64,000 bases of DNA from Ananas comosus (taxonomy: Eukaryota > Streptophyta > Magnoliopsida > Poales > Bromeliaceae): NCBI RefSeq assembly GCF_001540865.1, contig NC_033627.1, positions 8,537,408 through 8,601,407 of the forward strand, given 5' to 3'. A model generated the notes under the pieces. The model had not been told where the DNA came from. It did not search any database and saw nothing but the letters and a program-made list of their open reading frames with translations. Numbering within the stretch: the first letter of the stretch is position 1; each line of letters begins with the position of its first letter. Of the stretch, positions 2,943-53,755 are shown in pieces. The position numbers were made by a program, and so were the translations under genes.

Positions 2943-3237
2943 CTCGGGGATCGGTCCCTGGCAGGGAGGGACCGGTCCCATCAGGTTGGGTTGTGGAGGT
3001 CTCTGATGAGACCGGTCCCTGGTGGGCAGGGACCGGTTCCCGAACGTTGGCCCGGCGAGATTTAGCCAAATTTGGCTAAGTCCCAAGAATGCAGCTCTCG
3101 AGAACCGGTCTCTCAGACAAGGATCGGTCTCCCGGGGACCGGTCTCTCAGGTAAGGACCGGTTCCCGAACGCGAAATCCCCTCTGCTTGGTTGTGCAGCT
3201 TTCGGGGACCGGTCTTCCCGAGCTGGGACCGGTCCCT
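2943..3237 (+). promoter_or_regulatory. Paired CCGG palindrome array in LTR C
   Basis: Ten ACCGGT or ATCGGT sites in five pairs. Within-pair spacing of start positions is 19-21 bp (e.g. 3011/3032, 3138/3157, 3208/3228). A core CCGGTTCCCGAACGTTGG lies at 3033-3050. The array ends ~70 bp before a TATA-like sequence. The function (enhancer-like) is inferred. Confidence 0.6.
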
Positions 3238-12602: not shown

Positions 12603-12852
12603 TCTCCCACTCGCACATGACGGGATCGATGCCATCGTAACCACTTCCTCAACATCACACCACTATTAATTCTATTCATACAAGAAAATGAACAGTGCAG
12701 CCGCCGAGTCAACCTGCATTTTGGGAGCTCTATACTAGAAACCCCATTCGGCCAGCATAGAGATATCAACCCTCAAAAAGAAAAAAATATTAGACTCGTG
12801 ATGCCCTAGACCATTGAATTACATCAGGTTCAGCATCTCTAATCTCTCAAAG
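12603..12852 (-). other. Copia H 3' untranslated segment with PPT
   Basis: 250 bases between the 3' LTR and the nested LARD LTR. Apart from the PPT at its left edge I see no gene or motif. Confidence 0.6.
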
Positions 12853-12891
12853 TGTCACGCCCCGGGGTCCCTTTAGGTTAAAAACACAGCG

Positions 12892-12938
<47 letters not shown>

Positions 12939-14955: not shown

Positions 14956-14960
14956 CAAAG

Positions 14961-15803: not shown

Positions 15804-18800
15804 TTAACATGAGCCCAAAAATAATTCTCTAACAACAGGCTTAGTTAGAGAATCTACAACCACGCGACTCGTAGATATGTGTTCCAGGATTATTTTCTTC
15901 TGCGCCACTGCCTTCGAGTGGTCCAATCCCAGATTGGACTGAAAATGGCTAACCAAGCCCACGGCATAGCATATATCAGGCCGAGTACACATCATAGCAT
16001 ACATCAGGCTCCCGACCGCATTAGCATATGGAATCCGATTCATCTTGTCCTTCTCTTCAGAAGTTTTAGGGCACTGTTTAAGGTTCAAACTCTCACCTTT
16101 AGCAATAGGAGTGTCAATGGGTTTGCAATTTTGCATCTGAAATCGTTCTAAAACTTTTCTTAGGTAAGTCTCTTGAGACAGACCTAAAAGTTTCTTTGAA
16201 CGATCTCGTAGGATCTTAACTCCGAGCACATAATTCGCTTCACCCATGTCCTTCATTTCAAAATTAGAGGACAGCCACGTCTGAGTGGCGACAATCATCT
16301 CCTTATTATTCCCGGCCAATAAGATGTCATCCACATATAAAGAAAGGATAAGAAAAAATTCTTTGGACCGTTTAACATACACACAGTGATCTTCTTCAAT
16401 CATCGTAAACCCATCTTCAGTGATGGCTCGATGAAATCGAATATACCACTGTCTGGAGGACTGCTTCAATCCATAAATGGATCGTCGGAGCTTACAAACT
16501 TTATGCTCCTCACCCTTTACAGAGAAGCCAGTAGGCTGATCCATATAGATCTCCTCATCCAGTTCTCCATTGAGAAATGCAGTTTTAACGTCCATTTGGT
16601 AAAGATCCAAATCCAAATATGTGACAATGGCCAAGATCAGACGGATCGAAGCAAACCTTACAACAGGAGAAAAAGTTTCTTCGTAATCAACGCCTTCTCG
16701 TTGGGTAAAACCCTTTGCTACTAGGCGAGCCTTGTACCTATCGATAGAACCGTCTGCCTTGCGCTTAATCTTGAGAACCCATTTATTCCCAATTGTTTTG
16801 CGCCCTTGTGGCAAGTCAACCAAGTCCCAGACATGATTTGACTTCATCGATTCTATTTCCTCCATCATTGCATCCATCCATTCCTTATGAGTAGGTAATG
16901 AGAGAGCCTCTTGGAAGGATCTAGGCTCATCATCATCATGTGCAGCAACCATGAAAGCTTCCCCCTCAATCTCAAAACGACGACGGGGAATGCCTACACG
17001 TGCGCTCCTACGAAGTTGAGGCTCCACATCTAAAGGTAAGTCGCTCCCACTATCCCCAGGAGGTATCGGAGTCGCCTCCTCTGCCTCAACTGAGCGAATA
17101 GAAGCGCCAATGTCAGAGTCATCCATCTCATGGAACTCAGTTTCATTTCGAACCTCACTTCTATAAGGAAAATCCTCCTCGAGGAATTCAACATCTCGTG
17201 ACTCAATCTCAGTCAAACTTCCATCAGGCTGCTTTCCGATGAACACGTATCCCTTAGAGTGTTCAGAGTATCTTATAAAGATACACTTTCTCCCTCTAGG
17301 ACCCAACTTCCCATCCTTGTGAGAAGTATTGTGTACATAAGCTGCCGAACCCCAAGGACGCAGGAGCTCCAAATTTGGTTTCCTGCCTGTCCATAATTCA
17401 TAAGGGGTGGAAGGTACTGTTTTGGAGGGTACACGATTAAGAATGTAGGCAGCAGTTAACAATGCGTCTCCCCAAAAGGAGACAGGCAAATTTGCTTGCG
17501 CCATCATTGACCTAACCATGTCAAGCAAGGTGCGATTTCTTCTCTCCGCTACACCATTTTGCTGCGGAGTGCCAGGAATTGTCAGCTGTCTGATTATTCC
17601 CTTTTCATCACACAATTTCTTAAATTGTTCAGATAGATACTCGCGGCCTCGATCAGTTCTTAAGCATTTAATTTTCATATCTAACTGATTCTCAACCTCA
17701 TTAATATAACGTCTAAAACAATCCAATGCTTCAGACTTATGGGAGATCAGATAAACATGACCGAAGCGCGTATGGTCATCTATAAATGTGATGAAGTAAA
17801 AAGCACCATGTCTTGCCCTCACACTCATTGGGCCACAAATGTCGGAATGGATTAATTGTAAAGGAAATTCTGCCCTTGAAGCTTTATTAAATGGTTTTCG
17901 GGTCGCTTTTCCCGCTAAACAATGTTCACAAGTGGGTAGGTCGACTTTAGTGAGCGAGCTCAATAACCCGTCTCTAACTAATCTAGTCATTCTATCCTGC
18001 CCAATATGACCAAGACGTGCATGCCATTTAATTGAAACATTGTGATCATTCTCAACAGAAGATAGCAGGGAAAAAGAATCACTATTATTAATATTATAAT
18101 CAATGTCCAAAACCATAAAACCATTCGACATAAAACCTCTTCCATAATAAATAGTTCCAAGATGAATCTTAACTACATCACTCTCAAAACGAAAAGAAAA
18201 GCCTAACTGTAGCATAGCAAGAATAGAAAACAAGTTCCGCCGAATTCCTGGAGCATAAAGTACATCATGTAGATATAAAGTTCGACCACCTTGCATGATC
18301 AACTTGTATGTGCCAATGCCTAACACATCGACACTTGAATCGTTCCCCATGTATACCCTTCTGCTCCGAGCAGGCACACGACGGTACTCAACAAATCCCA
18401 TCCGATCCCTCGCTACGTGGTCTGTTGCTCCTGAGTCTACAATCCACACAAGGAGAGATTCAGCAACAAACGTATTAGAAGAAACAAAAGAGCGAGAATC
18501 GGGATAGAGATGTACCTTCTTCGGCTCAGTGCAATCACGAGCGAAGTGTCCCAGCTGATTACAGTTGAAACAAGTCATCTTTGACTTGTCCTTCTTGCCA
18601 CCTCGTTTGCTTCTCTTTCTTTTAGTGCTCTTCGCGTTCTTAGGCGCGGATCCGCTACGATTTTGAGCCCCAGTAGTCCTCTTTCGCTTGAACCCAGATG
18701 TCCTGCGAAAGTTTGACTCAGCAGCATTGGCAGTTGGAGTTTTAACAGCCTCAAGGCGCTCCTTCTCCAACTCCAAATGCCACGCAACATCCTCAAAAGT

Positions 18801-19352
18801 TTTAATATTGTCATTATGGGTCAAATTTACTCGCATATGTTCCCACGAATTGGGAAGGGAACGAATCATAGCTTGGATCTGCTGCTCATCAGTCAAGGTG
18901 TCGCCAGCCGACTTTAACTCGCGAATCATGTTTGACATTGTTCTAACGTGCTGTTTTATAGTCTGATCGGCACGCTTCTTATAACTGTCAAACCTCATAG
19001 TCAGACTGCGCAACCTTGTAGCCGAAGTTGCATCAAACTTTGCTTTGAGAGCCTCCCACATGTCATACGCAGTCGGATACTGCTCACACTTGCACAAGAG
19101 ATCATTCTGCATACTGCTCAGCAACGTGATGCGAGCAATGCGATCCTTTTTGAGCCAATTATTATAAGCTTCCATATCTCGGCGAGCCTGGGCACTGGTG
19201 CCCTTTGCGGGTAGGTCCATTTTATTACTCAGGTTTTCCAGAACCTCTTGCTCAGCGAGAACATATTGAATTTTACGGTGCCAAATATCATAATTGTCAC
19301 CATCTAATTTCTCGCCCTGGTTTAAATCCGCAACAATTTGCTTGGAGGCCAT
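15804..19352 (-). CDS. Copia H Gag-Pol polyprotein, RNase H deleted in frame
   Basis: An uninterrupted 1182-residue frame from an ATG preceded by the H leader. Domains in order: gag with N-terminal copia capsid region (1-250), CCHC knuckle CFNCNQLGHFARDC (261-274), protease DSGA (306-309), integrase HHCC (H444, H449, C475, C478) and DDE (D504, D567, E603), RT with QMDVKTAF (D921) and YVDD (1006-1009). After PDICYAVGLVSHFQSN the text jumps from GLDHSKAV straight to AQKKIILEHI at residue ~1149, so the whole RNase H core is missing without loss of frame. Full-length relatives are about 150 residues longer. The protein could be made, but H would need RNase H from elsewhere to copy itself. Confidence 0.92.
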   Translation of the reverse strand: MASKQIVADLNQGEKLDGDNYDIWHRKIQYVLAEQEVLENLSNKMDLPAKGTSAQARRDMEAYNNWLKKDRIARITLLSSMQNDLLCKCEQYPTAYDMWEALKAKFDATSATRLRSLTMRFDSYKKRADQTIKQHVRTMSNMIRELKSAGDTLTDEQQIQAMIRSLPNSWEHMRVNLTHNDNIKTFEDVAWHLELEKERLEAVKTPTANAAESNFRRTSGFKRKRTTGAQNRSGSAPKNAKSTKRKRSKRGGKKDKSKMTCFNCNQLGHFARDCTEPKKVHLYPDSRSFVSSNTFVAESLLVWIVDSGATDHVARDRMGFVEYRRVPARSRRVYMGNDSSVDVLGIGTYKLIMQGGRTLYLHDVLYAPGIRRNLFSILAMLQLGFSFRFESDVVKIHLGTIYYGRGFMSNGFMVLDIDYNINNSDSFSLLSSVENDHNVSIKWHARLGHIGQDRMTRLVRDGLLSSLTKVDLPTCEHCLAGKATRKPFNKASRAEFPLQLIHSDICGPMSVRARHGAFYFITFIDDHTRFGHVYLISHKSEALDCFRRYINEVENQLDMKIKCLRTDRGREYLSEQFKKLCDEKGIIRQLTIPGTPQQNGVAERRNRTLLDMVRSMMAQANLPVSFWGDALLTAAYILNRVPSKTVPSTPYELWTGRKPNLELLRPWGSAAYVHNTSHKDGKLGPRGRKCIFIRYSEHSKGYVFIGKQPDGSLTEIESRDVEFLEEDFPYRSEVRNETEFHEMDDSDIGASIRSVEAEEATPIPPGDSGSDLPLDVEPQLRRSARVGIPRRRFEIEGEAFMVAAHDDDEPRSFQEALSLPTHKEWMDAMMEEIESMKSNHVWDLVDLPQGRKTIGNKWVLKIKRKADGSIDRYKARLVAKGFTQREGVDYEETFSPVVRFASIRLILAIVTYLDLDLYQMDVKTAFLNGELDEEIYMDQPTGFSVKGEEHKVCKLRRSIYGLKQSSRQWYIRFHRAITEDGFTMIEEDHCVYVKRSKEFFLILSLYVDDILLAGNNKEMIVATQTWLSSNFEMKDMGEANYVLGVKILRDRSKKLLGLSQETYLRKVLERFQMQNCKPIDTPIAKGESLNLKQCPKTSEEKDKMNRIPYANAVGSLMYAMMCTRPDICYAVGLVSHFQSNLGLDHSKAVAQKKIILEHISTSRVVVDSLTKPVVRELFLGSC

Positions 19353-20200
19353 TCAATTTCACTATGTTCATGCAATGCGCAGAAAAGGATATTTTAAAAT
19401 TAGTACACGATACATATATTCAATTTTGCCGCATCTCCTAAATTAAAAATTAGACCATAGATGCGTAAAGAAAAATTTTGCTATGCTCGTAATCACATCA
19501 CACACCATATGTCATAATTTTTAATTTATTTAATTAAGATGCACAAAAAATTGGGAGTAAAAAGCATATAATTTACTCTACCAAAGTCAAAAAGACTCCC
19601 ACTAGATAAGGCATGCATAAAATATATATGCCTAAAGTTACATTTATATATACATCATAAAAGGCATTATCACATTTTAAATGCATCTTAATTAAATAAA
19701 TTAAATATTGTGACATATGGTGTGTGATGTGATTACGAGCATAGCAAAATTTTTCTTTACGCATCTATGGTCTAATTTTTAATTTAGGAGATGCGGCAAA
19801 ATTGAATATATGTATCGTGTACTAATTTTAAAATATCCTTTTCTGCGCATTGCATGAACATAGTGAAATTGAATGGCCTCCAAGCAAATTGTTGCGGATT
19901 TAAACCAGGGCGAGAAATTAGATGGTGACAATTATGATATTTGGCACCGTAAAATTCAATATGTTCTCGCTGAGCAAGAGGTTCTGGAAAACCTGAGTAA
20001 TAAAATGGACCTACCCGCAAAGGGCACCAGTGCCCAGGCTCGCCGAGATATGGAAGCTTATAATAATTGGCTCAAAAAGGATCGCATTGCTCGCATCACG
20101 TTGCTGAGCAGTATGCAGAATGATCTCTTGTGCAAGTGTGAGCAGTATCCGACTGCGTATGACATGTGGGAGGCTCTCAAAGCAAAGTTTGATGCAACTT
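19025..20200. repeat. Inverted repeat of the copia H gag start
   Basis: Arm 1 (19025-19543) is the start of gag and its leader. Arm 2 (19682-20200) is the reverse complement, 519 bp each, around a 138-bp AT-rich spacer. The arms look identical by eye except at least two mismatches near the loop. Arm 2 ends exactly at a single N (20201). A minus-strand transcript from the right LTR would fold into a long hairpin. Either a real foldback or an assembly artefact. Confidence 0.85.
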
Positions 20201-20201
20201 N

Positions 20202-20380
20202 CGTGCGGCCCAAGCGTCCGCGTGGCCCGCGTGGCCTGCTCGGCATGCGCGGCCCGCATGGCCTCGTAGCCCGCGGCCTGTTGGGTGTAGCCCGCAAGGG
20301 TCGTGCGGCCCGCGACCTGCACGCGGTTTGCGTGGCCGACACTGCCGGCGGCCTACGCGCTGCTGCGACGCCGGTACAGT
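20202..20380. repeat. GC-rich degenerate repeats in the copia H leader
   Basis: About 180 bases of imperfect GCGGCCCGC / CGTGGCC repeats between AT-rich sequence and the N at 20201. Much richer in GC than the rest of H. Origin unknown. Confidence 0.7.
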
Positions 20381-20756
20381 AATAATTTTTACTAACCTAT
20401 GATTAGAAATCCAAATCATGCAAGGAATATATCAATAGAAAGCTTATGAGAAGCTCTTCTAAATCATGCAATTTTCACAATGGGATATACATCAAACAAG
20501 CCACCCCCAAAGTTTCGATTTAGGGTTTCATTTTTTTCATAAAATACAAAACCAAAACAAATCAAACTTTGTAGATCTAATCTATAAGATAGGTGCTTTA
20601 AGATGTGTAGCAATCAAGCAAAAAAATCCACTTCTGAAAAAAACCGCCATTAACGCTCACATACATGCAAGAAAAAATCTAAAACATGATAGATCTTGTT
20701 ATATTGCATGTAATCTCGTTAAAAGATGTATCAAGACCACGAAATCAACGAAAAAA
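20381..20756 (-). other. Copia H untranslated leader
   Basis: AT-rich sequence between the PBS and the GC-rich repeats. No coding frame of note. Confidence 0.6.
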
Positions 20757-20769
20757 GGCTCTGATACCA
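20757..20769 (-). promoter_or_regulatory. Primer binding site of copia H (initiator tRNA-Met)
   Basis: Reads TGGTATCAGAGCC on the minus strand, one base inside the 5' LTR. This is the standard plant copia PBS, complementary to the 3' end of initiator tRNA-Met. Confidence 0.95.
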
Positions 20770-20770
20770 A

Positions 20771-21271
20771 TGTAGAACGCAGCGGAAGTATTCGTTCGTA
20801 TCTTTTTGTGGAAGCGATTCGCGCTACAATGCGATGAGCCCGGATCGTAGAGGTTGGTTCACGTGTCCTTGGATCGTCCTTGAAAGTCTTCTTGCGCTCC
20901 GAACTCGCGGTGGATCGAACTACAAACGAGCACGATCGCAAATCCACCGTTCAAGTCCCTCTAGAATAATAGGTTAATGGAAGAAGTGGATTTTTTCTTA
21001 TTGTTTCTTATTCTCTTTCTTTTTCCGTTCTTCCCGTACTTTTTGTTATATGGGATCGATCGTATATTTATAAGGGATTCCAAAATCCTAATAGCGTTAG
21101 AGATAAGGCCAAATCAGTTATTAATTGTTATCCTAATATGACTAGGATTTATCTCTAACTAACTTTCCTATTTGAAAGCGAGATTAATTCCAATCCAATT
21201 AGATAACATAACATCCGTCGGATCGAACCCGCTTATGGGCGCACCCGATTCGATTTAACCAAATGCCAACA
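20771..21271 (-). mobile_element. 5' LTR of copia H
   Basis: 501 bp, TGTAGAACGC to AATGCCAACA, mate of 12102-12602. The TATA sequence on the minus strand (~21064) would start the H transcript. Confidence 0.93.
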
Positions 21272-29193: not shown

Positions 29194-29412
29194 TGAGAAC
29201 TATATAAATAGTTTCCAGTGGGTACGGCCACTCAAGGGAAGAGCTCGACCCACCAGGTCCAGATAAAGAGGAGAGCTTGTGAGAAGGGTTTTCCCTCTTC
29301 TTCTCTTGTGTGTGAGGGAAGAAATGAGAGAGGAGGGTTGGGTGGCTCACTATATAAAAGGGGAGAAGCTACAATTGCCAAAAACCCCCTAAACTGGGCA
29401 ATTTTTGCGCGC

Positions 29413-29508
29413 AGGGTCCGGATCTTGGTTGTAGGGTCCGGACCCCGTAGGTTGTTTTTTTTTCACAATTTACGGTGGGTCCGAACCTTGGGTCCAGGGT
29501 CCAGACCC
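29413..29508 (-). promoter_or_regulatory. Paired TCCGGA palindromes in the D LTR
   Basis: Sites TCCGGA at 29417 and 29437, and TCCGAA/TCCAGA at 29480 and 29500. Both pairs are exactly 20 bp apart, ending ~53 bp before the TATA box in transcription direction. Same layout as the ACCGGT arrays elsewhere. Confidence 0.6.
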
Positions 29509-34321: not shown

Positions 34322-36822
34322 TGTCACGCCCCGGGACCCAGCAGAAGTCCGCCTGGCGCGTGCCCAGGCCCACCATATGTCTCGAACATATAAGGCGTCT
34401 AAAACAAAATGATAAATAAACAAGAAGAGAGAAAAACATCTAGCTGTATCAGAGCAAAATGCATCTATGAGCTACAATAAAAGAAATGAACATAAAGCCG
34501 AAAGTCCACTAGATAAAAGCATAAAGTAGTACAACTAAAGCTCCAAAATAAGTACTAGAAAGGTACATAGGTGGTCTCTCTATACATGGTGCAAAATCTC
34601 TCTCTCTCTAATACAATAAAAGAAAGAGTAAACCACCTAAGCTCAAAAATAACTCCCCGCTAACTAGCTACGCGACTCCCTTGCCGCGATCCCATGCCTA
34701 CGCCGGTGCCGAAGGCTCTGAAATAAAACTATATAACAGGGGGCGTGAGAACTAGTGAATAATAGTTCCCAGTGAGCAATTACTGGCTTCAGTGAAATGC
34801 ACCACTAGGCCCAAACTAAAAAGGGGTCAGTAAGCACATATAAACAAAAGCGATATGTACGACAAGTAAATAAGCATGAATATTTGCTACCACATGATAT
34901 CTCTACCTAGCATGATTTAGTATAAGTAAGAAAAGCTATTCTCGTATGAATGTACCCCAGCATCGCTAGTATGATGTCCATAAGTCAAATAGTAAAGATG
35001 TCATTGTTTAGTATTCTAATCCATGTTCACATGGCATGATGAATGCTCAAAATCAAATCTGAAGAGACCCACCCGAAGGCTGTCGGGCCCTGAGACCGAC
35101 CCGTAGGCTGTCTGGCCGGTGCCGAGCCTAATGGTCCCGTGGTAGTCAACATCCCCACTCTAGAAATGAGCCTTTCCCACGGCAATCCACTTCGGCGCCC
35201 AATCCCGCACGGCAAATATGTATCGCGATGGCCATCTCCGAAGTGCCGGCTTGTAGGGAGCGACCCTCACAAGCATGTGCGAATGAGCACAATGGCAAGT
35301 AACAAAAGATCCGTCTCAAGTACCAAGTCCTCATGTCTAACAACATGGAATACGTCACAACTCTCTCATAGGCCTATCTCTATGTCATCATGTCTAAAAC
35401 ACGGAAAGTAGTAGATTTCCATAGCCTATCACTAAGTCTCAATACAATAGTCTCATAGTTTGCTAGTCCAAGTGCACCTTTATGACACTTTCATTTACTA
35501 AGTCCAAGCTTAAACCAAATATTCATAAATATATAATTGAGCCATTTTAAACATATGAGGGATGTTTCCAAATGGCTAGTGCGAACACTACTCAAACACA
35601 TGTAACAATACCTAGAATGCTCTGCTATATAGAGTGAAAATTATCTTACACATAACACATGCACTTTAAGTGTTCTAAAATTCACATAAATTTTATTTAG
35701 CATAGATTTGCATTTAAAATGACGTTACGACGAGTATAGAAAGCATGGGGGCCATTTCGCCCCATTTTCATGAAGCCAAACCCACCAAAAATCGAAACTC
35801 TTCGTTTCGCCGAATGGAGGTGTCCACTAGTCTCCTAGCACCCTAAAGATGTAGGAACAAGAGTTACACAATCGAAACGAACATCGAAAAGCTCAATCTT
35901 TAACCATCTAAGCATAGAGGGCATAACTCACCTCTTGTAATGAAATCCCTTCTCAAGCTTCCAAAGAGAGCAAGAACCTTTCCAAACCAACCTAGAGGAA
36001 AGTTCTAAACCCATCAATCAGGTCCCAAAGCCCTCAAATCGAAAAACCCCAAAATAAATCCTAAATTCTAAAATCTAGGGTTTCATCTAGCAAAATCTAG
36101 AAAAACTTATATTTAATGGGGAATACAAGTTACCAACCTCAAGAGAAGCTCCAAACCAAGCTCAAAATCAAGTAAGGTTGAAGTTTGATCCTCCACAAAG
36201 CTTCAACCACGAGCCCCAAGCCACCAATGTCGAGATGAAAGGAAGGGGATGATGCTCCAAAGCCTCCAAGTAAGCTCCTCTCCTTCTCCTTCTTCTTCCT
36301 CTTCTTCTCCTTCTCTTTCTCTCTCTAAGGTGCAAGGGAGAGTGTGAAATGAAGGAGGGAGAGAGGTGAAATGGCCATATAGGCCATCTATTGTAACAAA
36401 ATCTAGAAAAGCCCCTCAACTTTGCAACTATTGCACTGCCCAAACTGGGCAATTTTTGCCCAGAGGGACCGATCTCTCCCTGCCTGGGACCGGTCTCTCG
36501 GTTCGTCCAGCAAAACCAACGTTCGGGAACCGGTCTCTCCCCGCATGGGATCGGTCTCTCCTCGCGAAAACGTACTCGGGGACCGGTCTTACCCGCCAGG
36601 GACCGGTTGCCTCAAGTCCTGCCGCAGCACTGTTCTGAGGGGAGCGATCTCTCCTATCAGGGACCGGTCCCCGAGAGTGAAAACTCTCAGGACTTGCCAA
36701 AACTCCAGAGATCGAACTTTTAGGTCGGAATACCATCTACGACCTTCCACCAAGTGTGAAAAAGTTCAGAGTCCACATCAAACACTCGAACCTCGCAATT
36801 TGCACAGGTCTAGTGTGTTACA
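34322..36822 (-). mobile_element. 3' (left) LTR of chromovirus E
   Basis: 2501 bp, TGTCACGCCCCGGGACC to GTGTGTTACA. It has the hairpin block (34749-34768), a purine-rich leader and a CCGG array (36464-36676). A TATA-like TATATGG on the minus strand lies at ~36373-36382. The next bases give a PPT on the minus strand (AGGAAGGGTGAA). Confidence 0.85.
36464..36676 (-). promoter_or_regulatory. Paired CCGG array, E left LTR
   Basis: Eight sites in four pairs: 36468/36489, 36529/36550, 36582/36602, 36643/36663, spaced 21, 21, 20 and 20 bp. This is the same spacing series as the E right LTR. Core CCAACGTTCGGGAACCGG at 36516-36533. Confidence 0.65.
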
Positions 36823-36877: not shown

Positions 36878-39506
36878 TCAAGACTCCATCTGAAGAAGAT
36901 GGGAATAGCACTCTCGCAGCGCGCTCTCAAACTCCCACGTGGCCTCCCGCTCCCTATCATTGCTCCAAAGAACCTTCACATACGGAATATCCCGATTCCG
37001 CAGTTTCTTCACGTCGCGAGCCAAGATTTTCACGGGTTGCTCCTCGAAGCTCAAGTCGTCCCGCAACTCCAAAGGTGTAGCATCCAACACATGAGTCGAG
37101 TCGAAGACATACTTTCGAAGGACCGATACATGAAAGACGTTGTGCACTCCCGATAGGTTTGGTGGTAGAGCAAGTCGATACGCTATCGGACCCCACACAT
37201 TCCAAAATTTTATACGGTCCAATGAAACGAGGGCTCAACTTACCCCGAATCCCGAATCTCTTGATCCCTCTAGTCGGCGAGACCGTCAAGAAAATATGGT
37301 CTCCAACTTGGAACTCCAAGTCTCGCTGCCGTCGATCGGCGTAACTTCTCTGTCTACTCTGTGCCGTCAAAAGTCGCTCCCGAGCTATTCGAATCTTGTC
37401 CTCAGCCTCCTGGAGCACATCAGGGCCTAAAGCCAATCTCTCGCCTACTTCACTCCAATGAAGTAGCGATCTACACTTCCATCCATAAAGTGCTTCAAAC
37501 GGCGCCATCTTGATGCTTGCTTGATAACTATTGTTATAAGCAAATTCCACCATCGGTAGATGCTGCGACCATCCTCCTTGGAAGTCTATTACACATGCTC
37601 AGAGCATATCCTCCAAAGTCTAAATGGTGCGTTCCGACTGCCCATCACTCTGAGGGTGGAAAACAGTGCTGAAGTCCAGTCGGGTGCCTAGGGCGTCCTG
37701 CAGACTCCTCCAAAAGTGAGACACAAACCGAGTATCTCGATCCGATACTATCGATGTAGGCACTCCATGAAGTCGCACAATCTCATCAAGGTACACTTAT
37801 GCGAGCTTTTCTCCAGCCTAAGTGGTATGAATAGGTATGAAGTGCGCCGACTTCGTCAATCTGTCTACGATCACCCATATAGCATCATGCCTGGCCTGAG
37901 AACGGGGCAATCCTGTCACAAAATTCATGGTGATCTTCTCCCACTTCCACACGGGAATCGGTAAACTCTGAAGTTTTTCCGCGGGTAATCGGTGCTCAGT
38001 CTTTACTTGTTGGCAAGTTAGACAACGAGCTACAAACTCGCCAACGTCCTTTTTCATCCCGGGCCACCAATAGAACAACTTTAAATCCTTGTACATCTTG
38101 GTGCCTCCCGGATGTATAGCATAAGGCGCTCAGTGCGCTTCTTGAAGAATATCCTCTTTAATTTCCGAATCCGCCGGTACACAAATCCGTCCACGAAAAC
38201 GTATCAATCCTTGGTCATCCACAAGAAAATCGCTGGTGCAACCATCAATCATTCTATCTCGAATCTTTTGCAACTCCACATCGGAAGCTTGCTTCTCTTT
38301 AGTTCTATCCCAGAGTGTAGGTTGCACCACCAAAGTCATCAACCTCAAAGGCGTGTCTGGAGTCACCACCTCCAACTCCAACCGCTTCATCTGCTTGATC
38401 AACTGCGGTTGAGTAACAACATGCATTGCTAAGTTTTTCGTTGATTTCCTACTTAGCGCATCCGCCACCACGTTAGCCTTGCCCTGGTGGTAAAGAATCG
38501 TCAGATCATAATCCTTAAGCAGCTCCAGCCATCTGCGCTGCCTCAAGTTCAACTCCTTCTGAGTGAACAGGTACTTCAAGCTCTTGTGATCCGTGTATAC
38601 TTCACACCGCTCGCCATAAAGGTAGTGGCGCCATAACTTTAATGCGAAGACTACGGCCGCAAACTCTAAATCATGCGTGGGGTAGTTCTTTTCATAATCC
38701 TTCAATTGGCGAGAAGCATACGCGATCACCTTGCCATTCTGCATCAAAATGCAACCCAATCCATTAAAAGATGCATCACTATAAATCACATACCCTGCTC
38801 CAGCCATCGGCACGGTTAGGATCGGGGCGGTCGTCAATCGGTGCTTCAACTCTTGGAAGCTTCTCTTGCACGCATCATTCCAGATGAACTTGACACCTTT
38901 ATGCGTGAGCCTCGTAAGGGGAGTAGATAGCTTAGCAAACCCCTCGACAAATCTCTAGTAATAACCAGCCAATCCAAGAAAACTCCGAATCTCCGTGACG
39001 CTCGTCGGTCTCGGCCAATCCTTGATAGCCTCAATTTTCTTAAGATCCACGGCTATACCCGATCCCGATATTCAATGTCCAAGAAAGACTACCTCTCGAA
39101 GCCAAAATTCACACTTTTTCAGCTTAGCATAGAGCTCCTTTTCCCGAAGTACTTGAAGTACAAGCCTCAAATGCTCCTCATGATCTGCATCATTTCGGGA
39201 ATAAACAAAAATGTCGTCGATGAACACCACGACGAACCTGTCTAGATAAGGCTTAAAAATACAGTTCATCAGATCCATAAAGGCTGCCGGGGCATTAGTA
39301 AGCCCGAACGGCATAACTGTGAACTCATAATGTCCATACCTCGTTCTAAAAGTCATCTTCAATACATCCTTGGGTTTGATCTTTAACTGGTGGTATCCCG
39401 ACTGCAAGTCTATCTTGGAATACACACACGATCCTTGAAGCTGATCAAACAAGTCGTCGATCCTCGGCGACGGATACTTATTCTTGATCGTGATTTTATT
39501 AAGTTC
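36878..39506 (-). pseudogene. pol of chromovirus E: RT, RNase H, integrase, chromodomain-like end
   Basis: Starts inside RT at the gap. RT boxes: [22 protein letters not shown] and the catalytic FIDD (39213-39224). RNase H follows ([44 protein letters not shown]; 38130-38849). Integrase has HPGGTKMY...CLTCQ, then FVTGLPRS, SDRDTRF and [10 protein letters not shown] with the catalytic Glu. The C-terminus (VKVLWSNDREREATWE) resembles the chromodomain region that steers insertion. At least seven stops and a frameshift near 37220. Confidence 0.9.
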
Positions 39507-40041: not shown

Positions 40042-40373
40042 TATAGAACATAAAAGTGCAAGTTAGTAACCCGCACTATCGAGTCCCCGCTCAAATAACA
40101 AAACCCCAAATCACGCGAAAGTAAGGAAGTGTCCTTCACTACTAACTCCCGATATTACGTTGTCGGCCGCCAACGTAACCCTCCGCGAAGTTAGAAGCCA
40201 TACACTCCGATCAAACTCTAACTTTTTAGAGTTGTCATGAACCCAATCATAATACTTTCGCTCACAAGTCAATTAGATCTCGTCTCTCACGAGCCTAATT
40301 CCTATAGTCCAACCGGCCTAAGGTTCGCTAGGTCTACTAAGACTCAACCCTAGGCTCTGATACCAAATTAATC
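40042..40373 (-). promoter_or_regulatory. Leader and PBS of chromovirus E
   Basis: About 330 bases of untranslated leader. TGGTATCAGAGCC on the minus strand (40353-40365) lies eight bases inside the LTR, the initiator tRNA-Met PBS. Confidence 0.88.
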
Positions 40374-43046
40374 TGTCACGCCCCGGGACCGGCGGAGGCC
40401 CTCCCGGTAGCGTGCCCAGACCCGCCATATGTCTACACATATAAGGCGTCTACACTAAAAGCGGAAGTAAAAGCAAGTAAAAGAAGTGAAATAACTAGCA
40501 ACTAATGATATCAGAGCAAGAATAGTTCTATCATCCACACCAAGGTAATGAAACAAGGCTAAGATCCAAATATAACCATAAGTAGTACAAATCTAACTCC
40601 CAAAAAGGAATACAAAGATCCAAAAGGAGGTGGTCTCTATACATAAACGGGTACAACGCTCAACCTCTCACAAAATAAAACCACGAGAGGTAGACCACCT
40701 ATCGAATCGTCCTCGAAGGAAGCTAGCTCGAAGCGACTCCCTTCCCGCGGTCCCTAGCCTCTCCCGGCGTGGAAGGCTCTGAAAGAGAACACAAAACAGA
40801 GGGCGTGAGAACTATAATTTATAGTTCCCAGTGGGCAATTACTGACCTCAGCTCATCGCACCACTAGGCCCCAAAAGAAAAGGGTAAGTACTAAGCAATA
40901 ATAAGAGTAATAGTAACAGCAGTACGAAAGCATAAGTGAAGTGATAAACCACTATATCACAAGTAAACCTGATGTCATGGTGATGTACATCTACGCTATC
41001 ATAAGATATTACGTCTCAACATGATAAACAAGTAATCCTCACAATGCAATATGTTCATGCATAAAGAGTAAGCTTTAACCAAGCAACCGAGTATACTACA
41101 ATGCAACAATGAAACCGGCAAGTATGCTACATGTACCAATGCTATATCATGAACATGTCAAAGTAATCCAACTACTAAACCTATCTAGTAGTAATTATTC
41201 ATTCCCAAAACTGTGTCGATTTCCATTTCCAATTAAGGACCTACTCAAGGTAGTCCAGCTTGTGCCGCCTAAGTGCCTGTGGTAGCCCGACATTCCTACT
41301 CTTGGAATGTGTCTGTCCCACTCGACCCCGTAGGCTTCTCAATACCGCACGAGCGATCAACAGTCGCGTAGGCTAACTCCGGAGTGCCGGCTTGCAGGGA
41401 GCGACCCTCACAAGCATGTGCGAATGAGCACAAATGGCAAGCAAGCGTAGTCCAAGTCTCAATTGTCCAATCCTCATGTCTCTAACATGGCATCATAACT
41501 AGCATCCCGAAGATCTAGTCTAAGTCACAATGTGAGGTCCCAACACACACTTGCTTAGTGCCTCTTTATGACACTTAAAAGCATCACACGTGATCAAGTC
41601 ATTCTTGTTCTATGTTCATTTTAAACATTATACTTAATGACTATATTACCCGGCCAATGCCTCTTTATGAACATTGGCTCAATTCTAAGTAGGTCCAAGT
41701 TCTCTAAGCATTCTAAGCTTCTAAAAATCCTAAGTGTCGCCAATTGCATGTGTGTTAAATGCAAGGGAGGCAAGATCGTTTACATAATAGGGATCATGGT
41801 TCCCAATCATAACTAGAATGCTAAGTCTCACATGCATGCACTCTTACCACAATAGCGGCCTGCTAAAATTTCACTATTCATTATAGTGACTGTTAGCATT
41901 CTAAAATTAGTAAATAAATTAACATGGAAATGCTCGAATTTTCTAATTTTTACGAAACATATTTGCCAAATATGTAGCATGTTCTCATATCATAGGCTAG
42001 GCAAACCCACGGAACCGTCGCGTGCTCTTCGATTCGCCGAACGGCAGTTGCACGATCTCCAATACCTAAAAGGTATTGAGCGAAAGTATACACGTGTATT
42101 ACGATGCATCTTATAATATCAAACATTAACCTAGAAGCACAAAGGGCCAAAACTCACCCAAGAGTAAAAATCCTCTCCTAAGCCCCAAAGGGGAGCTAGA
42201 ATCCTTCCAATCCAAGGCCGAGGAAGGTTCTAAACCACTAATTTGGTCAAAAGCCCTAGATCAAAAATGCCCAAAAATAAGCCCAAGGTATAATTAGGGT
42301 TTCATCCAAAAACTGTTAGCAAAACAAGATCTAGAGGAGGGAAATGAGCAACCAACCTCCTTAGAAGCTCCAATCCTAGCTCCAAGGGTGAAGATCTCCT
42401 CCTATGCAAGCTCCAAGACCAAGCCTTCAAGCACCAAGGGAGATGAGAGGGTGAGGAAGATGCTCCAAGCCCACTAGTAGCTCCAAACTCCTTCTCCTTC
42501 CCTCCCTCCTCTCCTTCTCTTTCTTCTTCTTCTTCTATATCAAGGGTGTAGAGAGGGTTGAGAGAAGAGAAATGGGGAGAAGAGAGAGTGGAGGGGTCAT
42601 ATAGACCCTCTATTGTAACAAAATCCCAAGTGGCCCCTCAAAAATCCAATATTGGATCAGCCCGGTCTGGGCAGTTTTCGCCCAGAGGGACCGGTCTCTC
42701 CCCAGCAGGGACCGGTCTCTCGCTGCGAACCCGAAAACCCAACGTTCGGGAACCGGTCTCTCCCTGCGTGGGACCGGTCTCTCTCTGCGAAGGCGCGCTC
42801 GGGGACCGGTCTCGCCCGCCAGGGACCGGTTGCCTCAGGGCTACCGCCACACTGTTCACTGGGGGACCGGTCTCTCCTTCCAGGGACCGGTCCCCGAGAG
42901 TAAAAACTCTTAGGACTTGTCCAGAATTCTAGTTTTCGAACTTTTTAGGTCGAAAAATATTCTACGACCCTCCACCAAGTGTGGAAAAGCTCGAAACACA
43001 TCCAAACACTCGAACCTCGCAATTTGCAAAGGTCCAGTGTGTTACA
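40374..43046 (-). mobile_element. 5' (right) LTR of chromovirus E
   Basis: 2673 bp, TGTCACGCCCCGGGACC to GTGTGTTACA. Same layout as the left LTR but with many differences. The hairpin GAACTATA/TATAGTTC lies at 40809-40827, a purine-rich leader at ~42480-42570, a TATA-like TCTATATGACC (minus) at ~42595-42606 and the CCGG array at 42687-42898. Confidence 0.87.
42687..42898 (-). promoter_or_regulatory. Paired CCGG array, E right LTR (clearest example)
   Basis: Eight ACCGGT sites in four pairs: 42690/42711, 42752/42773, 42805/42825, 42866/42886, spaced 21, 21, 20 and 20 bp. The pairs begin 53-62 bp apart. The array stops ~80 bp before the TATA-like box. Core CCAACGTTCGGGAACCGG at 42739-42756. 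Confidence 0.7.
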
Positions 43047-46378: not shown

Positions 46379-48826
46379 TGTGACGCACTGGACCTTGCAA
46401 ATTGCGAGGTTCGAGTGTTTGATCTATGTGACGAGCCATCTCAGACTTTCTGAAGGGTCGTAGACGGTGTTCCGACCCATGGTTCGAGTCCCGAGAATTG
46501 TGGTTTGAAACAGTGTACCAAAACCCGAAAAATCAGATTTTGGTTAGCTCTCGGGTTGCCTTCTGAGGGCTGTGTACCGGTACGGGAGTGATGGCTGTAC
46601 CGGTACAGCCATCGACTTTGGCCGCTTCTCAGCCAACCCGAGGCTCGGGCTGGGCATTTTCGTAGAGGGTGTACCGGTACGCGGGCCCGTGTACCGGTAC
46701 GCAGTGCAGTATTTGAACTGTTCGAAACTGCAGGGGGTTTTTCGCATTTGTGGACTTTTATATGTGTCCCCACGCCCCATGGAGCTCTCCCTGAGCTGGA
46801 AACCGTGGAGAAGCAAGGTAGGGAGAACCTCTTCTCCTCCCTTTGGTTTTGATCACCTTTTTGCTTGGGTTTTGATGGTTCTTCCCTCTCTTTTGCATTT
46901 TGGAGCTATTTCCACCATTGTTGAAGCTTGGAGCTTAGGTTTGGAGCTTGATTGAGGGATTATTCTTGAAGTTTGAGAACTTTGAGCTTGGTTTGAAGCT
47001 TCTAAGAGGTAAGAGGCAAGATCCTTTCCTCTAGATCTAGTTTTTGGTTGGATTTTACTAGATCAAACCCTAGATTTTGGATTTTAGGGTTAAATTTGGG
47101 GATTTTCGTTTTGAGGGCTTTTGTATCAAATTGATGGGTTTAGAACCTTTGTTTAGGTTAGATTGGGAGGACTCTAGCTCCCATTTGGAGATTGTGAGAG
47201 CTTCCTTCGCAATCGGTGAGTTTTCGTCTACCCTAGCCCTATATGCTTAATGATTGAGCTTAGCGTCGTTTGTTTCGACTAGATGACACTTGTTCTTGTA
47301 CCTCTAAGGTACTAGGAGACTAGAGGACACCCTCGTTGGAGCGCACGAGGAGTTTCGTTGTCATCGGTGGGTTTGGCTTCGTGGAAATGGGGCGAAATGG
47401 CCCCTATGCTCTTTCTACTTGTTGTAAATTATTTTTAAGTTCATTTCTATGCTAAATGGAATTTATATGAATTTTAGAGCACTTAAAATGCATGCCTCGT
47501 GTATTATGAAAATTTCACTATATAGTAGAGCTATATGAGTAGAATGCATGCATACGGGAAAAGTATTTATTTTGCAAGTGAAAAATACATCTCTTATGAG
47601 AATTATGACTTGGAATATGTACTTTGGAACATAGTTACCATGTTTTGACATAGAGAACCAGAGTGTCATAAGGCGCACTTTGAAACTATAAACTATGAAC
47701 TGCAACATAGAGACCACATTGGTAGGGCATACATATAGTCTATATTCATAGTTAGAGGACATGATGGACATAGGATAGGCTTTGAATACTGAAGATTCCA
47801 TGTTATTAGCAGAAGGAACTTGCGGTACTGCGACAGATCATTTGACTAAATTGCATTGTCTCATTGGCACTGTTGTGAGGTTCAGTTCTACAACCGGCAC
47901 TCGGAGATGGGCATTGCGAGATACATATTCGCCGTGCGGGATTTTGGGCGTGAGTGGTTGCGTGGGAGTCACTCCTAGTGGTGGGAACGCGGTAGTTGAT
48001 TACCACGGGCATTAGGCTCGGCCACGGCAGACAGCTACGGGGGGTCTCGAGGCCATAGGAAGCCTTCGGGTGGTCTCTTCAGATTTGATTGAGGTATTAG
48101 ATGACAGTGTGACAGATATGACTTAGAGTATTATTTGGCATTGATAGGAATATATAACAACGGAACTTCTATTTCGCATTGTGACATTATGATAGTTGGA
48201 GATTTGTACTTATGCATGGTTCATATTATGTATTTATGCTAAGTAGAGATATGGGAGTGGGTGGTTGGTATGTTGACGTGTTACTGTGCTTCATTTTTCT
48301 CAGTTATAGTACCTGACTTATTGGTAGGGTGTTGCTGGTGTGTGTGTGTGGGGTTGGGGATGAAGTCTAGTATTGCCCACTGCGGAATATTTCAAGTTCT
48401 CATTGCCTGTTTCTATGTTTCCTTTCGCGAGCCTCGCCGGGGAGGCACGGGATCGCAGGCAAGCCGGTGATCGCGAGCTAAGCTCGCGAGAGAGTTTCTG
48501 TTGCCTAGGTGGTTTACTACTCCATTTTATATTTTGAGAGAGTGTTGAGCTTTGTATCATGTATAGAGACCACTGTGTACCTACTATAGAACTTGTATTT
48601 GGGATCCCTATTGTACTTCTTTTATGTTTATTTAGTGGATTACAGTTTTATCCTTATCCCTTGTTGTAGGGTGGCAAATTTTTGAGGACATTTTATTGAT
48701 GTCTGATATCCTAGATGTCTTTATTATTGTTTTAGTTATTGTTGTTTTTAGACGTCCTTATATGTTGTAGACATATGGGCGGTCTGGGCACGCGCGGGCG
48801 GGTTCCGCTGGTCCGTGGGCGTGACA
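46379..48826 (+). mobile_element. Chromovirus solo LTR nested in F
   Basis: TGTGACGCACTGGACC to GGGCGTGACA, 2448 bp, the + strand equivalent of the E LTR (shared start through CTCGAACC-type sequence and shared end). U3 has TACCGGTA pairs (46573-46700), then a TATA-like CTTTTATATG (46755) and AGGTAAG (~47006). No internal region, so a solo LTR. A clean target duplication is not visible (GACGA versus GCGAT). Confidence 0.82.
46573..46702 (+). promoter_or_regulatory. Paired TACCGGTA palindromes in the solo LTR
   Basis: Sites at 46576/46599 (23 bp) and 46673/46693 (20 bp), each GTACCGGTAC or close. Ends ~53 bp before the TATA-like box. Confidence 0.6.
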
Positions 48827-49165: not shown

Positions 49166-52117
49166 ATCTCTTGTAAACCCGATTTTTTGCGTTCTACACT
49201 CCGTTTTTTGCGGGTGTATAAGGAGCGAGAATTCATGTTTTATGCCTATTTGAAACAAAAATCATAATGTGAATTTATGAATTTCTCCCTTTGATCACTC
49301 TCGAATAGTAAATTTATCGTTACGCTCATTCATAAGCGAGAGACATAATTCTCAGAAAAGGAATCGAAAGTATCGGCTTTTCAGTATGGAAGGCATCCAT
49401 ACATATCGAAGTTAAATCATCAACAATAGAGGATTATAACGTTTTCCATCCAAACTTTGAATCCTAGATGGTCCCATCAAGTCCATATAAAGTAATTCTA
49501 ACGGTTTAGATGTCCCTAAGTGGTTCAAATTCTTACGTGCGGATCTAGTTTGTTTTCCCAGTTGACAACCCTCACACACAGTGTTCTCTTTGAAGACTAT
49601 CTTAGGTACACCTCTAACAACCTCCTTCTTAGATATCTTAGATAGTTCCTTAAAGTTCATGTGACCTAATCGTTCATGCCATAAAGTTTCGGTCTGTAAT
49701 GTCGCTAGGTTACAATGTTCAGTTGAAGAACTAGGAACTACATAACAGTTATTCTCAGATCTTACACCTTTTGAGAAAATAGAATCATCATGAGTCACAT
49801 TGCATTCTTTATCAGAAAATTTCACAGAATACCCATCATCACACAATTGGCTTATGCTTACGAGATTTGATTTAAGCCCCTCAACATAAAAAACATCATT
49901 CAATGTAGGGCCATCTGAGATAGTGACAGTTTCTTTTCCAATAATTTTCGATGACCGACCATCTCCAAAAACAACAAGTCCACCGGACATTTTATTTAAA
50001 GAAGTAAACCAATTTTTATCACCGGTCATATAACGTGAACAACCACTATCCAGATACCAAGAAGTGTTGTCGTAAGCATGAAGCGAGGCGTGAATGATAA
50101 GGCAAGGAAAGAGTTCACCTTTACGCACCCAAACCTTACGTGTTTTGGGTTGCGTTGGCCGACTTGATTGCGAAATATGTTGCTTGTCGACGATTTGAGC
50201 AATTTTCTTCTTAGGATCATCCTTCTTCCGTTTCCAAGTTTGCTTTGCATTTGTCTTTGGATCTTCCTTCTTTGGTTTCCATGTCTGTTTGTTCTTAGGA
50301 TCATCCTTCTTTGATTTCCATTGTGCCTTCCGATCCAAGGGTGTAGTGGGGCTTTTAGCCTTTTGTTTGCAAACCCTTTTCACATGACCTAAAACACCAC
50401 AAAGATGACAAATTTTGTTAGCAAATGAGTTTTTCGGAGGGATAAACTTACCATAAAGCTTAGGAACCACTTTTGTAGAATGTTCGTCATCTTTCTTCAT
50501 CGCTTGATCAATATACGTCTGTTCGTATCCAAGTTCAAGTTTATTTGTTTGACCAAGTCCAAGCATCTTATCAAGTTTGCTAGAGCCAGACGAGAATTGA
50601 TTTAAATCCGATTTAAGTTGAATAATCGTCTTGGTGAATTCCATATTTGCTTCTCTAGCTTCCGAGTATTGCTTGGTAAGAAAATTAATGTTTTCAACAT
50701 GAGACTCATTTTCCTTTTCAAGCAATGTACACTTCTCAAATAAAGAATTGTAGGCCTTAGTCAAACCATCTCTTTCTTGTTCTAGATCCTTTGACAACGA
50801 GGCCATTCTTGAATTCTCTTGTTCTAAGTCATGTAGACTCCGCCGCAGCTTCTTGTTATGTTTTGCCACCTTCTTTGATTCGACGACCAATTGTTGATAT
50901 GCTGTGACCATGTCATCTTCATCCGACTCTTCATCCGATGAATTCTCCGTAGACGATTTTTCATGCCTAGATGACATAGAGATAGAATCTGTAGATGCTA
51001 AACACATAAAAGAGTCATGTGCAATAAGTGCCGTAGCGTTAACATCCTCATCACTTGAAGATGACTCACTCGAAGACGAGTCAGCCCAAGTGATGGCTTG
51101 CATTGCTTTCTTTTTTAAGGATTTTTTATTAGGGCAATCCGATACAATATGACCAAATCCTCTACACTTATAGCATTGGATTTGACCTTCATTAGTTTTC
51201 TTCTCTTTTGAAAAATCTTTAGAAGAGCTTTCAGACTTTTTATTCTTAGAATAGGAAGATGAAGAAGAACTCCCTTTAGATTTGCTTGACTTGGAGGAAG
51301 TGGACTTAGGAGGAAACTTCTTTCTAAAGTTCCGACAGAACTTTTTCGTTAGAAGCGCTAGTTGCTTTTCAAACTCCTCCAAGGTTTGCTCCGACTCCGA
51401 GTTCGATGAAGCTGTAGAGTCATTTCCTTTTGTTGATTTTAGAGCCATCCCTGAAGCTTTAGAAGAAGATTTGGAAGAAGACGAATTAGAAGGAAAAGTC
51501 ATCTCATACGTTTGAAGTGCACTTACTAATTCTTCTACCTTGAGTTCATCCGGATGTTTTACCGTTTCAATAGGCGCAACCTTTGGACGAAATCGTTCGG
51601 GAAGGGTTCTCAAAATTTTTCTCACAATTTTAGAGTCCAGAATTTTCTCGCCTAAGTTAGCACACGTGTTTACAATGTCTTCTAAACGAGTATAATACTA
51701 GGTAAAAGATTCATGTTCTTCTATACGAATAGAGTCAAATCTACTTGTAAGCATTTGTAATTTTTGAATCTTTACCAAGCTTGTACCCTCGTGTGTAACT
51801 TGTAAAGTATCCCAAATTTTTTTGACGGTTTCACACGTCGAGACACGAGAAAATTTCGTTTGATTTAAAGCATTAAATAAAGCATTGATACCATTTCCGT
51901 TGAACGAAGATAGTTCGTTTTCCTCTTTCCACTTATTTCTAGGATTCGGACCGGTAACATTCTCGACAACTTCAGTAGAATGTTTCCACCCGAATTCAAT
52001 GGCTTGTCATACCCGCTCGTCGATGGCAATAAGAAACGCCCTCATACGGACTTTTCAATAAGCGTAATTAGTGCCATCAAAGAGAGGGGGTCGATTAATG
52101 TTACCGCCCTCGGCCAT
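49166..52117 (-). pseudogene. Copia G gag, protease and integrase start (SIRE-like)
   Basis: The likely ATG is at 52115-52117 (MAEGGNINRPPLFDGTNY), after the PBS. A long gag follows with stops near 52057, 52018 and 51700, then an open frame 49412-51625. It shows a CCHC knuckle CYKCRGFGHIVSDC, Ser/Lys-rich stretches, a coiled coil (~50560-50900) and a second CCHC CHLCGVLGHVKRVC. Protease is WYLDSGCSRYMTG. The pre-integrase zinc box is HERLGH..CEGCQLG, and DLMGP carries the first catalytic Asp. The large two-knuckle gag fits the SIRE lineage. Continues broken to 49166, where LTR F interrupts. Confidence 0.88.
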
Positions 52118-52136
52118 GATTTACAATCTATACCCG

Positions 52137-52148
52137 CTCTGATACCAA
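52137..52148 (-). promoter_or_regulatory. Primer binding site of copia G
   Basis: TGGTATCAGAGC on the minus strand, one base from the LTR. Initiator tRNA-Met type. Confidence 0.92.
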
Positions 52149-52879
52149 TTGTAAGATATGGATCCCGAGGATCTAAAAGGTAAATAACACCTAGAGGGGG
52201 GTGAATAGGTGTAAAACGGCAAAATCAAAAACTCTCGATGCAAATAAAAAGAATAGCGGAAAATAAAAACAACACACCGAGATTTTAACGTGGGAAAATT
52301 CCAATTCGGAGTGAAAAACCCACGGGACCGATCACACGAAGAAAATCCACTAAGAAAACTTGAGTACAAGTGATTGAACCGAAATACAAGACTCAATTTA
52401 CCGAATTCTTGTTGTCGATTGTCTTCGCCAGTCCTCGATCGATAGGAATCCTCCAATCGACCCCGCCGCAACTCCTTGCCGCATCAACGCCTCAACTCCT
52501 CGAAGCGTCCACCGAATCCTCGGCTTCATGCGAGATCCACGCGCTGAACCTCCTTCCGGAGCTTGTAGAATCGATGATTTGTGGTGATTAAGACTTAGAA
52601 TCCCATAAGCAATGAGGGTTCACCTTCTAATCAAACATCTACTTGATTCTCAAAGAATATCTCGAGTTAAAATCGAAGAATCAAGTAGATCGTTGATTAT
52701 ATGAAACTTGTTATATGAATAAAATCATAAGAATGTGAAAATAAGTTTCTAGGGTTTTAGAACAGTAGAAATTCAAAGCCTAAACTCATATGATGACCCC
52801 CATGGCTTATTTATAGGTTTAGAAGATTTAGAAGTAGACTAGGATTGCCAAAAGTCTATTTTAAAAACTGGTGTCGTCC

Positions 52880-53195
52880 TCAGGGACCGATCCTCTCGAG
52901 GAGACCAGTCTGTCAGAGACCGGTGCCTTGGGTGGGAGACCGGTCCCTCGCTGCGTGACAGAAAACACAACGTTCGGAAATCGGTCTCTCATGCCAGAGA
53001 CCGGTCTCTCATGCCAGAGACCGGTCTCTCTCTGCGAGTCAAAAATCCCAACATTCGGGAACCGGTCTCTCATGCCAGAGACCGGTTGTACCGACTAGGA
53101 GACCGGTCCCTCAGATCAGGAGACCGGTTGCATTAGTCTTTCACGTAGAGAGAACTCTCGGGAACCGGTCTCTCATCTCAGGGGATCGGTCCCAG
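52880..53195 (-). promoter_or_regulatory. Paired CCGG array proximal to TATA, copia G LTR
   Basis: Pairs 52919/52939, 52980/53000 (plus a third site at 53020), 53061/53081 and 53102/53123, spaced 20-21 bp; a weaker pair at 52886/52904. Core CCAACATTCGGGAACCGG at 53048-53065. Ends ~65 bp before the TATA box. Confidence 0.65.
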
Positions 53196-53427: not shown

Positions 53428-53755
53428 GGACCGGTCCTTCCCTGCCAGGGACTGGTCCCTGAGGACCTTCCCAAATTCACGCGTATGGGAACCGGTCCCT
53501 CCTGCCTGGGGACTGGTTGCATCGCGCGTCCACCGCAACCTTCAGCCACGGGGACCGATCCTTTCCTGCCAGGGACCGATCCCCGAGAGCAAACTTTGCC
53601 CAGAGAGCCGTCTGCCCCGCATACCACCTACGGGAACCGGTCCGCATCACCAGGAACCGGTCCCCGAGAGTAGTTTTGCGCAGACCCCCCCTCTGCCAGA
53701 ATTCCTGCTTACGGGAACCGGACCCCGCCGCCAGGGACCGATCCCCGAGAGCAGA
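53428..53755 (-). promoter_or_regulatory. Distal CCGG array, copia G LTR
   Basis: A second, more degenerate array (ACCGGT, ACTGGT, ACCGAT) separated from the proximal one by ~230 bases. Pairs again about 20 bp apart, e.g. GGGACCGGTCC...GGGACTGGTCC at ~53430/53450. Confidence 0.55.

Follow-up and report, generated by a model that had tools for sequence, protein, structure and literature searches.

Binding sites two helical turns apart before a promoter are known from SV40 and HTLV-1, whose promoters carry 21-bp repeats. In plant LTR retrotransposons, palindromes termed RM boxes were described in 13 Sireviruses, with a CGG-CCG core in 12 of the 13 and 8 to 32 copies per element (Bousios et al., 2010; PMC2829016). 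They form predicted CpG islands and, for the most part, occupy the upstream half of the LTR, a short distance before a TATA box; the paper calls them Sirevirus-specific and absent from classic copia elements, the elements compared being Ty1/copia. The words "helical" and "spacing" appear a single time each in its main text, in both cases within the reference list. CCGG-bearing palindromes (CACCGGACNNNGTCCGGTG) have also been reported from a cis-regulatory region of the LTRs of the maize Sireviruses Opie and Ji, and the same papers, citing Bousios et al. (2016), name palindrome-rich LTR regions of maize Sireviruses as small-RNA hotspots (PMC5311732; PMC10760457). The preliminary description of the arrays reported here knew of no precedent; the Sirevirus RM boxes are, however, a described relative.

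The window, which is the whole 64-kb stretch of pineapple DNA that was analyzed, contains a Ty3/gypsy element, E, and a solo LTR:

40374..43046, minus strand: E-right LTR, the 5' LTR as judged by the primer binding site, with the ends TGTAACAC...GGGGCGTGACA
40354..40365, minus strand: primer binding site TGGTATCAGAGC of the Met-tRNA type, adjoining E-right
34322..36822, minus strand: E-left LTR, in the position of the 3' LTR
36960..38954, minus strand: broken pieces of Ty3/gypsy RNase H, integrase and SH3 (Tf2-1-like) between the E LTRs
46379..48826, plus strand: solo LTR, whose ends and U5 relate it to E but whose array (TACCGGTA) differs

Element E is placed among the gypsy elements by the pol domains between its LTRs, of which the rve match lies below its cut-off, and by the Met-tRNA primer binding site. 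Its LTR ends and the abundance of Del elements in pineapple lead us to assume that it belongs to the Del/Tekay lineage. Del gypsy elements account for 16.4% of a published pineapple assembly (PMC6022998). Over the 0.93 kb that align best (35893-36822 vs. 42119-43046), the two E LTRs have an identity of only 76%, and inspection by eye showed no matching target-site duplication, so that they may stem from different insertions.

Seven arrays were found in the window, E-right and six others on the same plan:

42690..42891, minus strand: E-right array, eight ACCGGT sites with steps of 21, 41, 21, 32, 20, 41 and 20 bp
36468..36668, minus strand: E-left array, laid out as E-right, five exact and three decayed sites
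2950..3233, plus strand: array of LTR C, eight exact and two decayed sites
52886..53190, minus strand: G array, before the TATA box of the copia element G, nine exact sites and decayed ones
53430..53742, minus strand: C2 array, in C-family LTR sequence adjoining G, five pairs (four exact and six one-mismatch sites), lattice kept
46576..46698, plus strand: array of the solo LTR, four TACCGGTA sites in pairs of 23 and 20 bp, 74 bp between the pairs
29417..29505, minus strand: D array, weak, two pairs spaced 20 bp, one of exact TCCGGA sites and the other decayed

The ACCGGT sites of E-right start at 42690, 42711, 42752, 42773, 42805, 42825, 42866 and 42886, which agrees with the four pairs at 21, 21, 20 and 20 bp given in the preliminary description. 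The same series had been given for E-left, where the layout is indeed identical and two of the decayed sites have one mismatch and the third has two. The design was also said to recur in C, G, D and the solo LTR; arrays are present in all four, but one solo pair is spaced 23 bp and D has only one exact pair. C2 had not been distinguished as an array of its own there. Likewise, the claim of constant pairing and spacing holds as far as about two turns, whereas the pair spacing across the arrays is non-uniform (18-23 bp), and C and G each contain one 15-bp step. That the families are unrelated, as had been proposed, is not supported in this form: E-left, E-right and the solo LTR have LTR sequence in common outside the array, D shares its LTR ends and approximately 52 bp with E-left, and C and C2 are one family. 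Nor is a difference of the flanks by family supported in the form given, since the C, C2, E and G arrays all belong to the GACCGGTC class and their sequence is partly common. Among 93 exact array sites from the window, the C1 stretch described below, L025 and L028, 34 were of the TACCGGTA class, 33 of the GACCGGTC class and 26 of others. The solo LTR combines the ends and U5 of E with TACCGGTA sites, which implies that the flank class changed inside one lineage. A mixed array at L008 5260-5412 (C1:5035260) contains TACCGGTA together with CACCGGTT and AACCGGTG sites, and further pairs of ACCGGTAC and GTCACCGGT are among the genomic 21-bp pair matches.

The distances between array sites follow the helical repeat of DNA. 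In the window, a period near 10.35 bp was obtained (80 distances, R 0.76), and on another chromosome (C1:5,000,001-5,200,000), where eight arrays of three or more exact sites are located, R was 0.72 at 10.3 bp (73 distances). This 200-kb stretch was picked with the list of 21-bp pairs in view, three of which lie within it, and was therefore not a blind choice. Five further stretches, 47 kb in total, were taken partly from other chromosomes and partly from next to the window. Two contained arrays and three contained none; the steps of the two (22, 62, 20 and 20, 63, 22, 39, plus a separate 22-bp pair) agree in phase. All 17 arrays with at least three exact sites, a rule by which C2 and D drop out and which admits L001 and L004, picked up through a 21-bp match, gave a pooled period of 10.30 bp (bootstrap 10.25-10.36). 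Fitted per distance class, however, the period ranged from 10.22 to 11.99 bp, and its exact value should thus not be pressed.

The preliminary description had placed the two sites of a pair on the same side of the helix, two turns apart. The gaps between pairs are near whole turns as well, which goes beyond that claim: the steps vary by whole turns (32, 41, 51, 61, 72 and 83 bp), and the 37 gaps of at least 28 bp, from which the pairs themselves are left out, are as well phased (mean cosine 0.76). After family repeats had been roughly removed, the remaining 24 gaps gave 0.75, and none of 100,000 jittered sets reached either value. Sites with one mismatch near the arrays, which are not part of the lattice definition, were also in phase (window, 51 distances, R 0.61; C1, 60 distances, R 0.50). 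Steps of 14 and 15 bp depart from the phase, which is also looser over long distances (60-90 bp, R 0.82; 90-130 bp, R 0.61; 130-260 bp, R 0.69). Because the GACCGGTC arrays share sequence, part of the phasing is inherited.

The ACCGGT arrays are real and occur throughout the genome. The window contains 46 copies of ACCGGT, compared with a mean of 8.9 and a maximum of 15 in 20 dinucleotide shuffles, and 38 of the 46 sites have another one within 105 bp; in the shuffled windows, neighbours closer than 80 bp averaged 0.0. Counted as close pairs, ACCGGT ranks first among the 64 palindromic hexamers in the window (49 pairs, 2.4 expected) and behind five AT-only words in the C1 stretch (53 pairs, 1.5 expected). 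The genome (381,958,007 bases in 3,128 contigs) was scanned for pairs at three distances, namely 20, 21 and 26 bp, the last being half a turn off. Pairs at 20 bp numbered 12,740 (reversed-pattern control 238), those at 21 bp 7,034 (control 159) and those at 26 bp 39 (control 8). A search of IMG/VR with one DNA pattern and two proteins as queries found no relatives. In the viral contigs L030-L033, ACCGGT is scattered except in L031, where 13 sites lie at 4224-4404 in mostly alternating steps of 13 and 11 bp, a dense arrangement that looks iteron-like.

The sites are conserved beyond their surroundings. In nine within-family comparisons (six E pairs and three F pairs), identity was 92-100% in the sites, 63-80% in the spacers and 60-73% in the LTR outside the array; as the sites are exact in one member by choice, decay was scored in the other member only. 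Indel events per aligned column were alike in the arrays and outside (E, 20/1199 vs. 68/3731; F, 6/550 vs. 32/1915), so that a constraint on spacing is not shown by this measure.

A TATA-like word follows the last site at a distance of about 40-110 bp in 10 of 15 arrays, while the outer upstream side has one in 1 of 15; the frequency at random positions is 12.7%. The TATA-like words of the window are the following:

42598..42603, minus strand: TATATG, 86 bp after the E-right array
36376..36381, minus strand: TATATG, 86 bp after the E-left array
52810..52815, minus strand: TATAAA, the TATA box of G within CTATAAATAAG, 70 bp after the G array
46759..46764, plus strand: TATATG of the solo LTR, 60 bp after its array
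29351..29356, minus strand: TATATA of D, 60 bp after its array

For the F and H arrays, the orientation was taken from the TATA-like word itself or from resemblance to F1; among the ten oriented by LTR ends, primer binding site or family likeness, six have the word, three of them in family E. An array before a TATA-like box in each case, as had been claimed, overstates the result: C, C2, C_5056943, E_5028493 and F2 have no match to the pattern used, C having TTTAATA instead. Another word, CCCGAGA(G), which reads CTCTCGGG on the opposite strand and was chosen after a scan of all 7-mers, is found beside 10 of 14 arrays and in six of eight family labels; it may provide the promoter with a further binding site.

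The arrays extend to a copia element, so that both Ty3/gypsy (family E) and Ty1/copia (element G) are represented, as stated in the preliminary description. Element G has the following further features:

52136..52147, minus strand: primer binding site of G, with a CA/ATTGGTATCAGAGC junction as in Sireviruses
49415..51697, minus strand: reading frame for copia gag and pre-integrase

Judged by these motifs, G looks like a Sirevirus. The junction of its 5' LTR and primer binding site, CAATTGGTATCAGAGC (primer binding site at 52147, minus strand), agrees with the Sirevirus pattern CA/ATTGG + TATCAGAGC, and the TATA motif CTATAAATAAG at 52816-52806 (minus strand) agrees with the Sirevirus pattern cTATAA/TAT/AAg. 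Sireviruses have a poly-C integrase signal near the 3' end of the LTR, and in G a poly-C stretch, CACCCCCCTCTAGGTG, was seen just ahead of the LTR end. The window yielded neither a 3' LTR of G, before which Sireviruses have multiple polypurine tracts, nor the start of its LTR, C2 lying directly upstream. C2 and G may be one LTR, and with C2 adjoining G, C and G are possibly not separate. No Pfam domains were found in two frames before C. The window also contains a copia element without a CCGG array (12102-21271; LTRs 12102-12602 and 20771-21271, 96.6% identical), with an open frame of 1182 amino acids at 15807-19352, plant copia polyproteins among the 120 matches listed in a protein search, and a primer binding site at 20769. 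A 519-bp inverted duplication of 99.6% identity (19025-19543 and 19682-20200) lies over the start of this frame.

Among the matches listed, the array sequence common to C and E and to E and G covers 91-106 bp at 78-80% identity, and that common to C and G covers 40-46 bp at 80-83%. No common LTR sequence was detected between E and C or G outside the arrays. On the strength of these alignments, the C, E and G arrays are considered inherited or exchanged rather than separately invented. Since the common sequence is confined to the arrays, the GACCGGTC module is judged to have been passed between gypsy and copia lineages or to have come from a common source.

We consider it probable (approximately 0.6) that the arrays are cis-regulatory elements of the LTR U3 of the RM-box kind, that is, promoter arrays to which protein binds from a single side of the helix. 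A symmetric host DNA-binding protein would occupy each of the palindromes (ACCGGT or TCCGGA). With sites 2, 3, 4, 5, 6 or more whole turns apart, the bound dimers would lie on one face of the DNA, and the aligned dimers could touch their neighbours and jointly act on the TATA box about 40-100 bp downstream. We infer the binding, its cooperativity and its activating effect from sites, lattice, TATA position, conservation and decay, all of which were observed directly. OsMYB4P, a MYB protein of rice, was reported to bind an ACCGGT probe by gel shift (PMC12483970); it is the one plant protein tied to ACCGGT in the sources covered by our literature search, and is regarded as a lead.

A role at the level of RNA is an unlikely explanation. 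The U3 of read-through or 3' LTR transcripts would then fold into hairpins that feed small RNAs and silencing, in line with the small-RNA hotspots in palindrome-rich LTR regions of maize Sireviruses described in PMC5311732 and PMC10760457. The four arrays that were folded, out of 15, were more stable than their shuffles (z −2.7, −4.8, −7.1 and −3.7), but any repeated palindrome folds well, and the z-scores therefore do not discriminate. Covariation within 29 pairs was absent (outer 101/232 vs. 99 expected, inner 83/174 vs. 81; one E-left site was placed 1 bp off in this count), and an RNA hairpin within pairs was rejected as there was no excess. The complementarity of the flanks within pairs was no higher than after swapping, and this speaks against selection for an RNA stem. 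Moreover, hairpins need no whole-turn distances between pairs, yet such distances occur.

It is also quite improbable that the arrays are primarily a chromatin device. CCGG is symmetric for CG and CHG methylation, and sites at multiples of 10.3 bp would face alike on a nucleosome and could serve methylation, or a protein that reads methyl marks, as a platform. The period of nucleosomal DNA is about 10.2 bp. The overall period of the arrays is below 10.5 bp and nearer to this nucleosomal value, although the fits per distance class disagree. The decay of the sites provides further support for such a device. Of 19 one-mismatch sites located 19-22 bp from an exact array site, 17 differ by a C-to-T change at a methylatable cytosine (10 at the outer C and 7 at the CG); this exceeds the background of 191 out of 682 one-mismatch words in all scanned sequence (Fisher p 2 ∙ 10−8), and 11 of 17 other one-mismatch sites within 105 bp show the same change. 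C-to-T decay is the mark of methylated cytosine, so that the resident copies are, or formerly were, methylated. To this extent, and indirectly, the earlier suggestion of a CG/CHG methylation target is supported; the decay shows that resident copies underwent methylation but does not reveal what the array is for, and it would be expected at any CG or CHG of a silenced element. A mere silencing target should be lost rather than kept, and the invariance of the outer A and T, the palindromic nature of the flank classes and the place before the TATA box are left unexplained. In base composition, the 15 arrays are GC-rich (0.49-0.66, 14 of 15 above 0.5), but their CpG ratio (observed/expected 0.75-0.98) is not above the sampled genome average of 0.92, and in six of the 15 it is below that of their own flanks; the solo, D and F2 arrays are shorter than 200 bp, which bears on any comparison with CpG islands.

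Tandem copying has left traces in the arrays. The steps of L001 (21, 40, 21, 40, 21, 40) repeat a 61-bp unit and the G array contains near-identical 20-bp units, from which it follows that duplication takes part. The two bases adjoining a site agree between sites at 0.49-1.00 in 12 of 13 arrays (0.21 in H), and the bases 5-12 bp away agree slightly above background in 11 of 13. An origin of the arrays as a functionless by-product of the tandem duplication of units of about 20 and 61 bp, with which these traces and the array sequence common to different families would be compatible, is nevertheless highly improbable, because the agreement at 5-12 bp amounts to merely 0.24-0.39 against 0.25-0.27 expected (13 arrays), the steps differ by whole turns and not by one unit, and the sites outlast the spacers. 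Plain tandem copying as the whole cause was rejected, the spacers 5-12 bp away being nearly unrelated.

If the lattice is a protein-binding code, as the reading as a one-face promoter array would have it, it offers a handle on what switches plant LTR retrotransposons on. The prediction, whole-turn versus half-turn spacing, is a sharp one, and the sites are abundant in one genome. More tentatively, one host protein, or a few paralogues with preferences for CGGTC, CGGTA and CGGAC, might drive both superfamilies, with arrays exchanged or re-evolved and the flank class switched; such a contested promoter code is conceivable but doubtful.

Compared with known systems, the arrays resemble the Sirevirus RM boxes in being repeated palindromes and, in 10 of 15 arrays, in their place before a TATA-like box; ACCGGT also contains both CCG and CGG, which may correspond to the RM core. 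The half-sites CGGTC, CGGTA and CGGAC are found both in Table 3 of the RM box study (PMC2829016) and in the present classes. In that table, the RM half-sites mostly face inward (CGG...CCG, e.g., CGGTCGACCG), whereas those of ACCGGT overlap back to back. The RM minimum of eight copies per element is reached here in single LTRs (E-right with 8, C with 8 and G with 9 sites), while the solo LTR and D have four each, decayed sites included. RM boxes are called Sirevirus-specific in PMC2829016; in contrast, such an array is present here in the Ty3/gypsy family E, which, being gypsy, cannot be filed with the Sireviruses. If the proposed reading is true, RM boxes would extend from one copia lineage to gypsy elements, which lay outside the analysis of PMC2829016. 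The maize Opie/Ji elements differ in having another palindrome, which is described as a hotspot of small RNAs and secondary structure in copia elements and Helitrons. The 21-bp repeats of SV40 and HTLV-1 are alike in having sites two turns apart before a promoter; their sequence and hosts are unrelated. A layout of palindromes phased by whole turns in LTRs was not found described in the literature searched. Relative to these systems, three features are apparently new: the sites are helically phased, a Ty3/gypsy family carries them, and a single lineage has switched its flank class.
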